Positions 58,886-63,757 of a DNA stretch of 64,000 nucleotides are shown in pieces. Source of the stretch: Clostridiales bacterium (GTDB lineage: Bacteria; Bacillota; Clostridia; Christensenellales; Christensenellaceae); contig SVGZ01000003.1 in assembly GCA_015056045.1 (NCBI GenBank), positions 62,001 to 126,000 of the forward strand. Reading direction: 5' to 3'. The position numbers were made by a program, and so were the translations under genes. Within the stretch, counting starts at the first letter, position 1. Each line of letters starts with the position of its first letter. Below the pieces are notes generated by a model. The model ran no database searches, had not been told where the DNA came from, and was given only the letters and a program-made list of their open reading frames with translations.

Positions 58886-59458
58886 TTAATTTTCAGGCCA
58901 GCCAAGAGCTTCTATCGCTGTTTCGCCGTTATGCGCCGTTTGTACAGCCTGTGCCAAAACATTGATCTCCGCTTTGCAGTTCTGATATTCGTTCGTCATC
59001 ATCGGTCCGTCAAAATGCACTTCGCTAAAAAGCGGTTCCGTTTTTTCTCCGGTCAAAACAGCCTCATTGTAATAATACCAGCCGTCTTTTTCCGTCCATT
59101 TTTCGCCGGTTTCAATGCGGATGATGTTTTTCAATTCATCCTCTGCAATTTCCATGATATTGCCGTCCTGATCAAAGACCACAATTTCAAATTTTGCACG
59201 GATAAAGGCCTTTTCATCTTCATTGCGGATGAGTGCAATCTTGCTCACCGTTGTTCCGGGCATGATCTCCACAGGTTTATCGGGATATGGCAAAAGCCCC
59301 TGTTCGGTTTCCTGCCACTCCTCTATTGCAATGTCTATCCCTGCGGTCGTGATGACGTTATGCGCAGTATCTTCCGCTGTAAAATAGGCTATCGTGCCTG
59401 TTACGGAAGCTGCAGCCAAAACCACCGCAGCAGCTAATGCCAGAATTTTTCTTTTCAT
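58886..59458 (-). CDS. SipW-dependent-type signal peptide protein (TasA/camelysin-like) 4
   Basis: MKRKILALAAAVVLAAASVTGTIAYFTAEDTAHNVITTAGIDIAIEEW. Confidence 0.87.
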   Translation of the reverse strand: MKRKILALAAAVVLAAASVTGTIAYFTAEDTAHNVITTAGIDIAIEEWQETEQGLLPYPDKPVEIMPGTTVSKIALIRNEDEKAFIRAKFEIVVFDQDGNIMEIAEDELKNIIRIETGEKWTEKDGWYYYNEAVLTGEKTEPLFSEVHFDGPMMTNEYQNCKAEINVLAQAVQTAHNGETAIEALGWPEN

Positions 59459-59577
59459 ATCAAGCTCCTTAAACGGAATTTGGGTCTTTCCCATAGGAGA
59501 ATACCCAAGGCACAACACCTTAGGTACTCTCATACGGGCACTCCATGAAAACGGAGTGCTTTCCGCATGATCAAATT

Positions 59578-60345
59578 TTAGTCATTGTTGATCCATGTTC
59601 TGTTTTCATAAGCTGCTTTGAATTCAGCTTCTGTAACCTGACCTTCGGCTTCTACCGGGTCACCAAAAGCTTCGTTCAGCGCTTCGTATGCATCGTTGAA
59701 GCCTGCAGCCTGTGCACCTTCAGCAACAACATAGATCTTCCATTCTTCGCCAAGAGCAGCTTTCAGTCTTGTGACGTCTGCATTGGTAACTTTGGAATCG
59801 AGGTAAACCTGGCTCATTGCATCAACGGTTGTTTCGCCTGTCTTGAGCGCTGTTTCATAGGTTACGACATATACGTTATAGGAAACGCCATCGATCGTTG
59901 TTGTGTAGCTGTTCCAGTTGCTGCCGGTTGTGCCGTCAACTGTTTTGGACCAGTTCCATTTGCCGTCTACAACAGATTCGGGTGTGTAGTTGAAGTGAAG
60001 AATGTTTTTGGAAGCGTCAAATGTCGGGTCACCATCATCGAGCAGTGTCGGGATAGCGATGTGTACGCGAACGTATGCATCTTCGGAGCCGTCATTTGTT
60101 ACGTAAACTTCTTTTTCAACGCCGTTTTTCAGTGTGCCGTTCTGTGCAGAACCGACAGCAGGAATGAGTTCTTCGATGCCAAGAGCATCGTTATCGCCAA
60201 AGTCTTCCCAAAGGTCGATTGCAACGTTGCCTGTTGTGAAGGTATTCTTCTGTGCATCGGTATCTGTGAAGTAAGCGAGTGTTCCGCCGACTGCTGTTGC
60301 GAGAAGAGCAACGACAAGGCAGATCGTTAAAATTTTCTTTTTCAT
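59578..60345 (-). CDS. SipW-dependent-type signal peptide protein (TasA/camelysin-like) 3
   Basis: MKKKILTICLVVALLATAVGGTLAYFTDTDAQKNTFTTGNVAIDLWE. Confidence 0.9.
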   Translation of the reverse strand: MKKKILTICLVVALLATAVGGTLAYFTDTDAQKNTFTTGNVAIDLWEDFGDNDALGIEELIPAVGSAQNGTLKNGVEKEVYVTNDGSEDAYVRVHIAIPTLLDDGDPTFDASKNILHFNYTPESVVDGKWNWSKTVDGTTGSNWNSYTTTIDGVSYNVYVVTYETALKTGETTVDAMSQVYLDSKVTNADVTRLKAALGEEWKIYVVAEGAQAAGFNDAYEALNEAFGDPVEAEGQVTEAEFKAAYENRTWINND

Positions 60346-60394
60346 CAAATGTCCTTTCTTTTATGCCATCTGGTTTCCCGTTTGAAAAATGGGA

Positions 60395-61030
60395 TCAATA
60401 GTTTGCATTGTTCTGTGCCAGTGCCCAAGCCTCTGCAGCGGAGAATTCTTCGCCGTTTGTTTCAAAGCGCTGTACGGAGTATGCGGTGAATGTGAGTTCG
60501 GGAGCTGCCACTTTGCCCTGTTTGATATCATCCATCATTGTCCTTGTGACGGAAGGCTTAACGCCAACTTCATCATTTTCCCATTCAATGGTGACATCGT
60601 CAGCTGTATCTTCCGTACCCATAGGATCTGTATAGGAACCTTCACCTAAGATATGGAATACCTGATCTGTTGTCAGTTCATCAGCGGTAAGATAGTAAAC
60701 ACCATCTTCTAATTTCTTCCAATCTCCATCGATCGCATAAGCGATGTATGTATCCAGATTTGCGGTTTTTTCAACCTTGACGAAAACATAGCAAGCTTCG
60801 CTGTTTGCCTTTACGGTAACGAAAGGATCCTTATCGATCGTGTGACCGGGAACCATTTCGTAGCCTTCCGTTGTCTCATCGAGTTCGATATCGATATCCG
60901 ATGTTGTGAAAACGTTTCTGACCGGGTTTGTCTTATCGAGCAGCCAAGCGAGTGTTCCGCCGATAAGGCAGCCCATCAGAAGGACGATCGATAAAGAAAG
61001 TGCGATGATCATTTTGTTTGTTTTCTTCAT
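60395..61030 (-). CDS. SipW-dependent-type signal peptide protein (TasA/camelysin-like) 2
   Basis: MKKTNKMIIALSLSIVLLMGCLIGGTLAWLLDKTNPVRNVFTTSDIDIELDE. Confidence 0.87.
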   Translation of the reverse strand: MKKTNKMIIALSLSIVLLMGCLIGGTLAWLLDKTNPVRNVFTTSDIDIELDETTEGYEMVPGHTIDKDPFVTVKANSEACYVFVKVEKTANLDTYIAYAIDGDWKKLEDGVYYLTADELTTDQVFHILGEGSYTDPMGTEDTADDVTIEWENDEVGVKPSVTRTMMDDIKQGKVAAPELTFTAYSVQRFETNGEEFSAAEAWALAQNNANY

Positions 61031-61102: not shown

Positions 61103-61756
61103 TTACGGGTTCATCTGTTCGTCAAATGCTTTCCAAGCTTTGTCTGCATCGCCTTCAAAGCCATCTGCCTGAATAGCGTGTGCCTCGATATCGATCTTGA
61201 GATTATCAAGTTTAGCCATATCTTCGTTGGTCAGATGTGTCGGCATTTCAATAGCGGTGAACAGCGGTTCAAGCGGAAGTGCAGCCTTGTCCACTGTGTT
61301 GACGGTCTTGTAATAACGGAATTCATATACGCGTGTATCGCCAACTTCCTTTTCGTCAACAAGCATCCATTTGGAAGCATCATAACCTGTCAGGATAGTA
61401 TCCAGTTTTACACCGGGAGCAAAGATAGCATCAAGATCAGCCTGTTCATTGATCGTCATGATCATTCTGATAAAAGCTTCTTCACTGTCAGCTTCAACGG
61501 TGACTGTCGGGTCTTTCGTGTAGGTATGACCGGGCAGGAGATGATACTTATTGCCATCTTCTGTTCTGCCTTCACCTGTGGGCTCACCCATTTCATCGAC
61601 AATCTCTTCATCGAGCTTGATGTAGACCTGACCAACTGTGAATGTATTTTTGATATCATCCTTATCCGTCAGGTATGCCAACGTCCCAAGGACGGACATC
61701 GCTACAAGAAGAACTGCGGAGACCATTGCAAGTAATACTTTGTATTTCTGTTTCAT
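61103..61756 (-). CDS. SipW-dependent-type signal peptide protein (TasA/camelysin-like) 1
   Basis: MKQKYKVLLAMVSAVLLVAMSVLGTLAYLTDKDDIKNTFTVGQVYIKLDE. Confidence 0.88.
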   Translation of the reverse strand: MKQKYKVLLAMVSAVLLVAMSVLGTLAYLTDKDDIKNTFTVGQVYIKLDEEIVDEMGEPTGEGRTEDGNKYHLLPGHTYTKDPTVTVEADSEEAFIRMIMTINEQADLDAIFAPGVKLDTILTGYDASKWMLVDEKEVGDTRVYEFRYYKTVNTVDKAALPLEPLFTAIEMPTHLTNEDMAKLDNLKIDIEAHAIQADGFEGDADKAWKAFDEQMNP

Positions 61757-61808: not shown

Positions 61809-62339
61809 TCATTTTTCATCTGTTTCCTTCTTTTCTTTTTCAAAAAGATCCGGAAGAAAGATCAGAAGCAGTATGATCGCTGCCGCTGCGATCGCAAAAT
61901 AGGTTCCCGGCGGATTCTGAATATAATTGGCAATGTAGCCAAGATACGGGATCGTAAAGATCGGTGTTCCCTGTACATTTTTATAATGCACAAGGCTGCC
62001 ATCTTCCGCTTCGTTGGCATCGCCTTTTGTCTTGAAGCGGATGACTTCCGGGTCTTCCTCATCGGGAACGACTTCGACGATGCGGTGTGTCGCGACCATT
62101 TTTTCGCTGATCGAATAGGTAATGACATCGCCTGCTTCAAGCGTATACGGATCAACCTTTTTGACATAAATAAGCGCACCAACGTGATATGTCGGCTCCA
62201 TGGAACCCGAAAGGACCGTGAACGGTGTCAGCCCGATGAACCTTGCACCGACAAGAAGGGTCGCTAAAATAACAACAAGCACAACCAATGCCGTCGTTGT
62301 AATATCCCAGATTTTTTTAGCCGTTTTGTTCATATGCAT
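61809..62339 (-). CDS. sipW: Signal peptidase I, SipW (archaeal/ER) type
   Basis: LTPFTVLSGSMEPTYHVGALIYVKKVDPYTLEAGDVITYSISEKMVATHRIVEVVPD; SGSMEPT Ser motif, VATHRI (His rather than Lys) typical of ER-type. Confidence 0.92.
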   Translation of the reverse strand: MHMNKTAKKIWDITTTALVVLVVILATLLVGARFIGLTPFTVLSGSMEPTYHVGALIYVKKVDPYTLEAGDVITYSISEKMVATHRIVEVVPDEEDPEVIRFKTKGDANEAEDGSLVHYKNVQGTPIFTIPYLGYIANYIQNPPGTYFAIAAAAIILLLIFLPDLFEKEKKETDEK

Positions 62340-62365: not shown

Positions 62366-62400
62366 AAATAAAAAGCAGCGATCCCTTGCGAGACCGCTGC
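62366..62400 (-). terminator. Leader intrinsic terminator upstream of sipW (candidate attenuator)
   Basis: Minus strand GCAGCGgtctcgcaagggatCGCTGCTTTTTATTT. Confidence 0.8.
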
Positions 62401-62414
62401 AATGTGTTTACTTT

Positions 62415-62445
62415 GGTCTGCAACCGCCTGTTTTTGGTGCAGACC
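62415..62445 (-). promoter_or_regulatory. Leader hairpin upstream of the terminator
   Basis: Minus strand GGTCTGCAccaaaaacaggcggtTGCAGACC. Confidence 0.8.
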
Positions 62446-62447
62446 AT

Positions 62448-62466
62448 GACATAATTCATATTATGT
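62448..62466. repeat. Left inverted repeat of candidate invertible segment
   Basis: GACATAATTCATATTATGT, perfect inverse of 62720-62738. Confidence 0.92.
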
Positions 62467-62719
62467 AATTTTAAATTAAACGGGGAAAATGATCATTAGC
62501 CCAAATTGATTTTTGACCGCAGGAAAGTAAAGCTTCATCAAATTCCCGTTTTGGAAGCCAAATAAAAAAGTGCATCCTTCACATTTGCACTTGTATCACA
62601 ATTTGTTACAAAATTTTTATACGATTTTGCGGTCTTTATGCTTGATTTGCCGTTCATATAATGCTAAACTAAACCTAAATCAGAACTTGATAATCTGTTT
62701 GCGGAAGCAGTCGCCACGG
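62467..62719. promoter_or_regulatory. Candidate invertible promoter segment (~253 bp between inverted repeats)
   Basis: Contains TATAAT at 62657-62662 facing right (away from sipW) and a hairpin+T-run facing left. Confidence 0.75.
62561..62592 (-). terminator. Leftward intrinsic terminator inside the invertible segment
   Basis: Minus strand AAGTGCAaatgtgaaggaTGCACTTTTTTATTT. Confidence 0.7.
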
Positions 62720-62738
62720 ACATAATATGAATTATGTC
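62720..62738. repeat. Right inverted repeat of candidate invertible segment
   Basis: ACATAATATGAATTATGTC, followed by TTTTTTGTTTTG. Confidence 0.92.
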
Positions 62739-62757
62739 TTTTTTGTTTTGCCCGTTT

Positions 62758-63594
62758 TTATATCAATCCGAGCCGTTCGATCTTTCTTCTGTGTTCGGTG
62801 CCCGTTGTCATGATATAAATTCTTGTCGTGTTGATGCTGCTGTGACCCAAAATATCCGCCAGTTTGGCGATATCTTTTTCAATGCCGTAAAACGTCCTCG
62901 CAAAAAGCTTGCGCAGGTTATGCGGAAAAACCTTTTTGCTGTCTACGGCAGCTTCCCGGCAAAGCGCCTTCATCTGTGCCCAGATCTGACTTCGGCCGAT
63001 CGGTTCCCGTTTTTTATTGATAAAGATCGGCCCGTTTTTAATTTTTTGCAGCTTTGCATAGCGCAGGAGCATTTTTATGAGCTTCCCGGGGATCAATATC
63101 TGCCTGAGCTTGCCCTTGCAATGGATCAATACTTCGCCTTTCTGCAGGGCTTCAACAGTAAAGTAGCAAAGCTCCGAGACTCGTATTCCCGTTCCGCAGA
63201 TCGTTTGAATAATAAGCCTGAGCTGCGGTTTTTCCTCTGCCGCTTGCAGCAGCCTTTGGTATTCCGCTTTTGAAAGCTCTTTTTCTGCCTTGCTGTAAAT
63301 CTCTTTCTGTTGTTTTAAGGCTTTTAGGCATAAATCGTTTCGCCCGATAAATTTAAAAAAGCTGTTGATGCTGGCGATCATGGAATTGATCGAACGCACC
63401 GCATAATTCTCTTTTAACAAATGCTCTTTAAACGCCAGTGTCTTTTCTTTTGTCAGTTCGCCCTCTTTGTTGAAATCTGCAAAACTCCTCAGATCGCGCA
63501 GATATTTTTCGATCGTCGCTTCTGCTTTTTCCTCATGTACCAAATAAATTCTGAATCTGTTTATCAATTCTTCTGTCAGCCTGCTGCTACTCAT
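62758..63594 (-). CDS. Tyrosine site-specific recombinase (phage integrase family)
   Basis: MSSSRLTEELINRFRIYLVHEEKAEATIEKYLRDL...TICGTGIRVSEL...HNLRKLFARTFY...LGHSSINTTRIYI; start at 63594 after GGGAGG. Confidence 0.93.
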   Translation of the reverse strand: MSSSRLTEELINRFRIYLVHEEKAEATIEKYLRDLRSFADFNKEGELTKEKTLAFKEHLLKENYAVRSINSMIASINSFFKFIGRNDLCLKALKQQKEIYSKAEKELSKAEYQRLLQAAEEKPQLRLIIQTICGTGIRVSELCYFTVEALQKGEVLIHCKGKLRQILIPGKLIKMLLRYAKLQKIKNGPIFINKKREPIGRSQIWAQMKALCREAAVDSKKVFPHNLRKLFARTFYGIEKDIAKLADILGHSSINTTRIYIMTTGTEHRRKIERLGLI

Positions 63595-63757
63595 CCTGAA
63601 CCTCCCGGAATATTCCCGTTTCATGCACTTCCGCTGCAGATCAGGTTCTGCTATAGGCCAGCATACAGATCATCAGTATATAATATTTTGCCTGTTTATT
63701 ATATGCTTCCTCAATTTCGATTGCAAACGGTTTTACCATAAAACGGTGTTTTTTCGC

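Follow-up and report, generated by a model that had tools for sequence, protein, structure and literature searches.

The window, as we call the whole 64-kb stretch of DNA analysed here, contains in the direction of transcription a tyrosine recombinase gene, a recombination site, a short segment, a second site and a sipW operon, with both the recombinase gene and sipW on the minus strand. An earlier note on this DNA had described the layout of the genes correctly, in that the recombinase stop codon lies 19 bp to the right of the repeat and the sipW start ∼110 bp to its left. The perfect 19-bp inverted repeat that it reported is likewise exact: both arms are 19 nt long, 100% complementary and 253 nt apart. 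No other 19-mer inverted pair within 600 bp occurs in the window, and 40 first-order Markov shuffles of the window gave zero 19-mer pairs and at most one 16-mer pair. The inverted repeat is not due to chance. Across the 2.07-Mb genome, ACATAATNNNNATTATGT is found in these two places only. The coordinates of all features are reported in Table 1.

Table 1. Features of the recombinase, candidate invertible segment and sipW operon in the window.
Feature	Coordinates	Strand	Details
Large protein, 523 aa	57303..58874	-	Ordinary-looking signal peptide; 11 bp from preceding ORF
Exported protein 4, BsaA/TasA-like	58886..59533	-	TIGR04090 1.6e-11, below cut-off
Exported protein 3, BsaA/TasA-like	59578..60348	-	SipW-type signal peptide; TIGR04088 8.3e-10
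Exported protein 2	60395..61030	-	Signal motif GGTLAWLLD
Exported protein 1	61103..61756	-	SipW-type signal peptide; TIGR04088, PF12389
sipW, ER-type (Ser/His) signal peptidase I	61809..62339	-	Start 62339 or 62333
Intrinsic-terminator-like hairpin in sipW leader	62375..62400	-	11 bp, -20.2 kcal/mol, then TTTTTATTT
First leader hairpin, upstream of terminator	62414..62444	-	GGTCTGCA...TGCAGACC
Left recombination site, sipW-proximal	62448..62466	+	Dyad ACATAAT-TCAT-ATTATGT plus one outer G
Invertible segment (candidate)	62467..62719	.	253 bp
Segment promoter (predicted)	62642..62670	+	-35 TTGATT 62642-62647, 17-nt spacer, -10 TAAACT 62665-62670
Right recombination site, recombinase-proximal	62720..62738	-	Perfect inverted partner of 62448-62466
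Tyrosine recombinase, XerA/XerD-like	62758..63624	-	288 aa, or from ATG 63594

The first gene of the operon encodes a signal peptidase that matches TIGR02228 above its cut-off and the Bacillus SipW equivalog NF046067 below cut-off (E 1.3e-31). We found this ER-type peptidase together with neighbours bearing SipW-type signal peptides (TIGR04088), the combination that defines SipW. The gene and exported proteins 1–4 occur in the same order at four related loci (L032, L033, L035 and L036), where sipW is 65–77% identical; exported protein 1 is syntenic at these four and at L082, and exported protein 3 is 75% identical in L033. Exported proteins 3 and 4 score 25 and 44 bits against TIGR04090 (TasA/BsaA), whose curated cut-off is 60, which at the sequence level suggests no more than a resemblance to the Bacillus TasA/BsaA matrix proteins. 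The 523-aa protein is probably encoded by the last gene of the operon; it is not conserved in the related operons, and profile searches gave no family match for it. Weak similarity was seen to proteins near the switches in L103 and L105.

The recombinase matches PF00589 (E 2.7e-24) and NF040815, the latter below the family cut-off. In an alignment to 4a8e (XerC-like), the catalytic residues R148, K172, H235, R238, H261 and Y270 are all present. Scanning species genomes with this protein returned 80 relatives of 55–65% identity, mostly from Clostridia with one from Holdemania. In the Clostridia family of L098, 93 of 401 sampled genomes carry relatives, with up to six copies each, and four single genomes (G1018, G933, G810 and G044) hold five to seven family copies apiece, which suggests several parallel switches. 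At one locus reached twice (L116, the same as L033; G065:C16:25304-26140), the recombinase frame contains one internal TGA, and at a distance of 6 kb there is a second copy, which is partial; this is possibly a locked switch.

The DNA 3′ of each relative's gene was scanned for ACATAAT-N4-ATTATGT in inverted register. Site pairs were found beside nearly all relatives not truncated by a contig end, lying just 3′ of the recombinase gene at 70 loci and then at 31 more; the 101 loci include the window, and four were reached twice, leaving 97 distinct. The four-base core is identical within the locus in 69 of the 70, where shuffling predicts 2.7 (maximum 9), and in this set the cores are never palindromic and are of 38 kinds. 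The enlarged set gave core matches in inverted register in 100 of 101 loci, with 56 core variants. Among the later-fetched loci, mostly relatives from the L098 family at 46–60% identity, 25 of 31 have site pairs (one locus had been seen before) and all 25 have matching cores, even where the sites have drifted to ACAAAAT-N4-ATTTTGT. Such a pattern fits the action of a tyrosine recombinase, because the core may vary freely yet must agree between the partners. Proximity and co-occurrence suggest that the recombinase and the sites belong together. Past the distal site, an ORF on the same strand starts within 400 bp at 58 of 68 loci. Three or four tandem site copies were also observed at one or both ends of the segment in L040 (6865-6930 and 7176-7240), L048, L067, L070, L084 and L097, and might make deletions possible, or segments of more than one length.

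When aligned, the segments of the family share a single conserved element, CTTGATTTTT-n-TATGnTATAAT, a promoter that ends ∼27, 37 or 48 bp before one site. The window's predicted promoter ends 49 bp before the right site, with a PWM score of 18.2 against a 99% null level of 14.2. The earlier note had taken TATAAT (62657-62662) as the -10; this motif is present but falls in the spacer of the conserved promoter, and the functional -10 is probably the TAAACT given in Table 1. This correction leaves unchanged the direction that the note had assigned, rightward and away from sipW, and its reading of the printed orientation is upheld: judged by the conserved promoter, the window is in the OFF orientation for sipW.

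Orientation was called with confidence as ON for 21 loci and OFF for 70 (four duplicate loci are all OFF), using a PWM whose training set was also the set being called. Two of the loci are in cultured relatives: L043 in Hespellia stercorisuis DSM 15480 is ON, and L036 in Cuneatibacter caecimuris DSM 29486 is OFF. Nine of 125 homology pairs contradict the calls, seven of them via locus L137. Both promoter orientations are present among homologous loci of related species, and at least 18 orientation changes are placed on the recombinase tree. Two pairs of homologous segments are inverted outright between species, aligning on the minus strand in BLAST: L067 with L097 (79% over 182 nt) and L058 with L064 (81% over 161 nt). 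Because most assemblies are OFF, inversion may be rare. Contigs from the 80 species-genome loci end within 300 bp of the recombinase gene at 10 of 30 downstream breaks, compared with three of 30 upstream, and those of L104 and L080 end directly behind the first site. This excess 3′ of the gene points to mixed orientations in the samples, to which the repeats themselves could contribute.

The matching cores, the two promoter orientations, the segments inverted across species and the loci with sipW as first gene all back the invertible promoter proposed in the earlier note, and we consider it highly probable that the locus is a phase-variation cassette in which a recombinase-inverted promoter segment switches the sipW operon. 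Orientation could instead act after initiation, with transcription from a fixed upstream promoter (for example, that of the recombinase) blocked in one orientation by a terminator in the segment, as has been proposed for some C. difficile switches. A leftward hairpin with a T run (62592-62561) does face sipW as printed, and the recombinase gene and sipW point the same way, so transcription could run through from one to the other; what the segments conserve is, however, a promoter, and terminators lie inside the segments at few loci and on either strand, which makes this mechanism unlikely. Less probable again is a relic or locked switch that no longer flips here, leaving sipW silent or served by another promoter. 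We found no flipped copy of the window's own segment, including by an exact flipped-junction search of viral contigs (most viral contigs with a recombinase relative stop at the gene or close to it and are uninformative on orientation), and the window's recombinase sits on a fairly long tree branch, but its catalytic residues are intact and the arms are still perfectly identical, whereas without selection or recombination they would diverge. That the repeats are protein-binding dyads or paired weak intergenic terminators, without any recombination, is very hard to credit: each site is dyad-symmetric and a T6 follows the right copy, yet the non-palindromic core varies between loci while matching inverted within them, and segments are found inverted between species.

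The distances between the two sites are themselves patterned and recur at intervals of ∼10.4 bp (R 0.59, taking one locus from each of 72 clusters), a strength of periodicity reached by none of 2000 jittered controls; a held-out test of the spacing phase agreed weakly (p 0.035, n = 25). At 271 bp, the window's site-to-site spacing falls within the mode of 270–274. We infer that the sites have to be brought face to face on a small DNA loop and, if this is true, the ∼10.4-bp rule shows that switches in nature are constrained by synapsis of their sites over such a short loop. The promoter-to-site distances were likewise observed to be periodic, near one DNA turn.

Between the switch and sipW lies a feature that the earlier note did not mention, a strong intrinsic-terminator-like hairpin in the sipW leader (62400-62375). 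A homologous hairpin is present in L032, L033 and L035, and in L043 with a weaker T tract; it is absent from L036 and L082. Being outside the invertible DNA, the terminator would act in both orientation states and, since it stands between the switch and sipW, simple promoter flipping is an incomplete account of the locus. Turning sipW on probably also needs read-through of this terminator, which is likeliest an attenuator or antitermination point. The 3′ arm of the first leader hairpin could compete with the terminator stem, and the leader as a whole is more stable than its shuffles (z -4.3). Two other hairpins, which the earlier note had read as terminators, do exist but are weak (-6.1 and -7.2 kcal/mol). 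No riboswitch or leader RNA in Rfam scored above its gathering score in the sipW leader or in the loci of five relatives; matches to FuFi-1 (20.2 bits against a gathering score of 59.6) and to SNORA77 (far below its gathering score) were rejected. A search for a NusG-paralogue antiterminator of the LoaP/UpxY type gave just one NusG domain in the 80%-complete genome. In L067 and L097, a hairpin and T run were seen directly past the distal site, ahead of SipW-containing operons.

A SipW-like gene is the first after the switch in nine of 63 first genes scanned, and SipW homologues lie within ∼6 kb of the switch in ∼22 loci. Other targets are TetR-led SipW operons, SPFH proteins, collagen-like or LRR adhesins, and histidine kinases. 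These varied targets imply that the cassette is general and SipW one recurrent target, with at least 11 changes on the recombinase tree.

We propose the following working of the switch. The adjacent tyrosine recombinase would act on the two 18–19-bp dyad sites, and strand exchange around their asymmetric 4-bp core would invert the 253-bp segment. As printed, the promoter would face the 3′ end of the recombinase gene and sipW would be off; after inversion, the promoter would drive transcription to the left, through the site and on into the leader of sipW. There the terminator would impose a second condition (read-through or antitermination), such that orientation permits expression and the leader may tune the output. 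Cells in the ON state would make SipW together with four SipW-processed surface or matrix proteins. The family comparisons indicate that the segment very probably can flip, switching the secretion operon on and off; that it inverts in the window's organism, by means of the adjacent recombinase, and that the leader plays the part given to it here, we infer from the DNA sequence.

The combination of recombinase and switch recurs in ∼100 loci of gut Firmicutes, in both orientations. For the window's arrangement, the prediction is that in uncultured gut Firmicutes an entire dedicated export pathway, the peptidase and its substrates, is turned on and off by DNA inversion, the substrates probably being matrix or surface fibres. 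By the site rule (ACATAAT-N4-ATTATGT with a matching core, and a promoter ∼27, 37 or 48 bp away from one of the two sites), any genome can be screened for switches of this kind and for the operons they control, and the candidates can be checked against reads that already exist. More tentatively, at somewhat less than even likelihood, the recombinase, helically phased promoter, terminator-bearing leader and SipW pathway with its substrates may form one cassette for all-or-none, two-step control of secretion in Clostridia and a Holdemania genome.

Invertible promoters with tyrosine recombinases are already well known. The closest described group is from the hCom2 community, where Clostridia inverton group 139 is reported with tyrosine-recombinase group 35 (PMC11892184). 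As described there, 32 of 33 group 139 invertons are in Clostridia, and inversion was seen in reads, for example from Clostridium sp. D5 and Intestinimonas butyriciproducens (PMC11892184). Like the window, the group combines Clostridia, short invertons and a tyrosine recombinase nearby, whereas SipW, signal peptidase and camelysin are absent from the main text of that paper (PMC11892184). Group 139 may be the window's switch family. The C. difficile cwpV, flg and cmrRST switches resemble the window in that a short invertible element, bounded by inverted repeats, precedes operons with surface or regulatory functions. At flg and cmr, inversion is combined with a leader riboswitch (PMC6837544), whereas the window's leader has no Rfam riboswitch match. 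Bacteroides also pairs invertible promoters with a tyrosine recombinase, as the window does, mostly for surface functions (as described in PMC8748976 and PMC11892184), but belongs to another phylum, with other site groups and with capsule or resistance genes in place of SipW export. Among the open-access papers that were searched, we found no SipW or signal peptidase linked to an invertible promoter or inverton. The window shares with the Bacillus tapA-sipW-tasA operon the co-encoding of a SipW peptidase with its own substrates. The Bacillus matrix operon is controlled by SinR/SlrR-type regulators, not by DNA inversion, whereas in the window sipW is preceded by a recombinase-linked switch.
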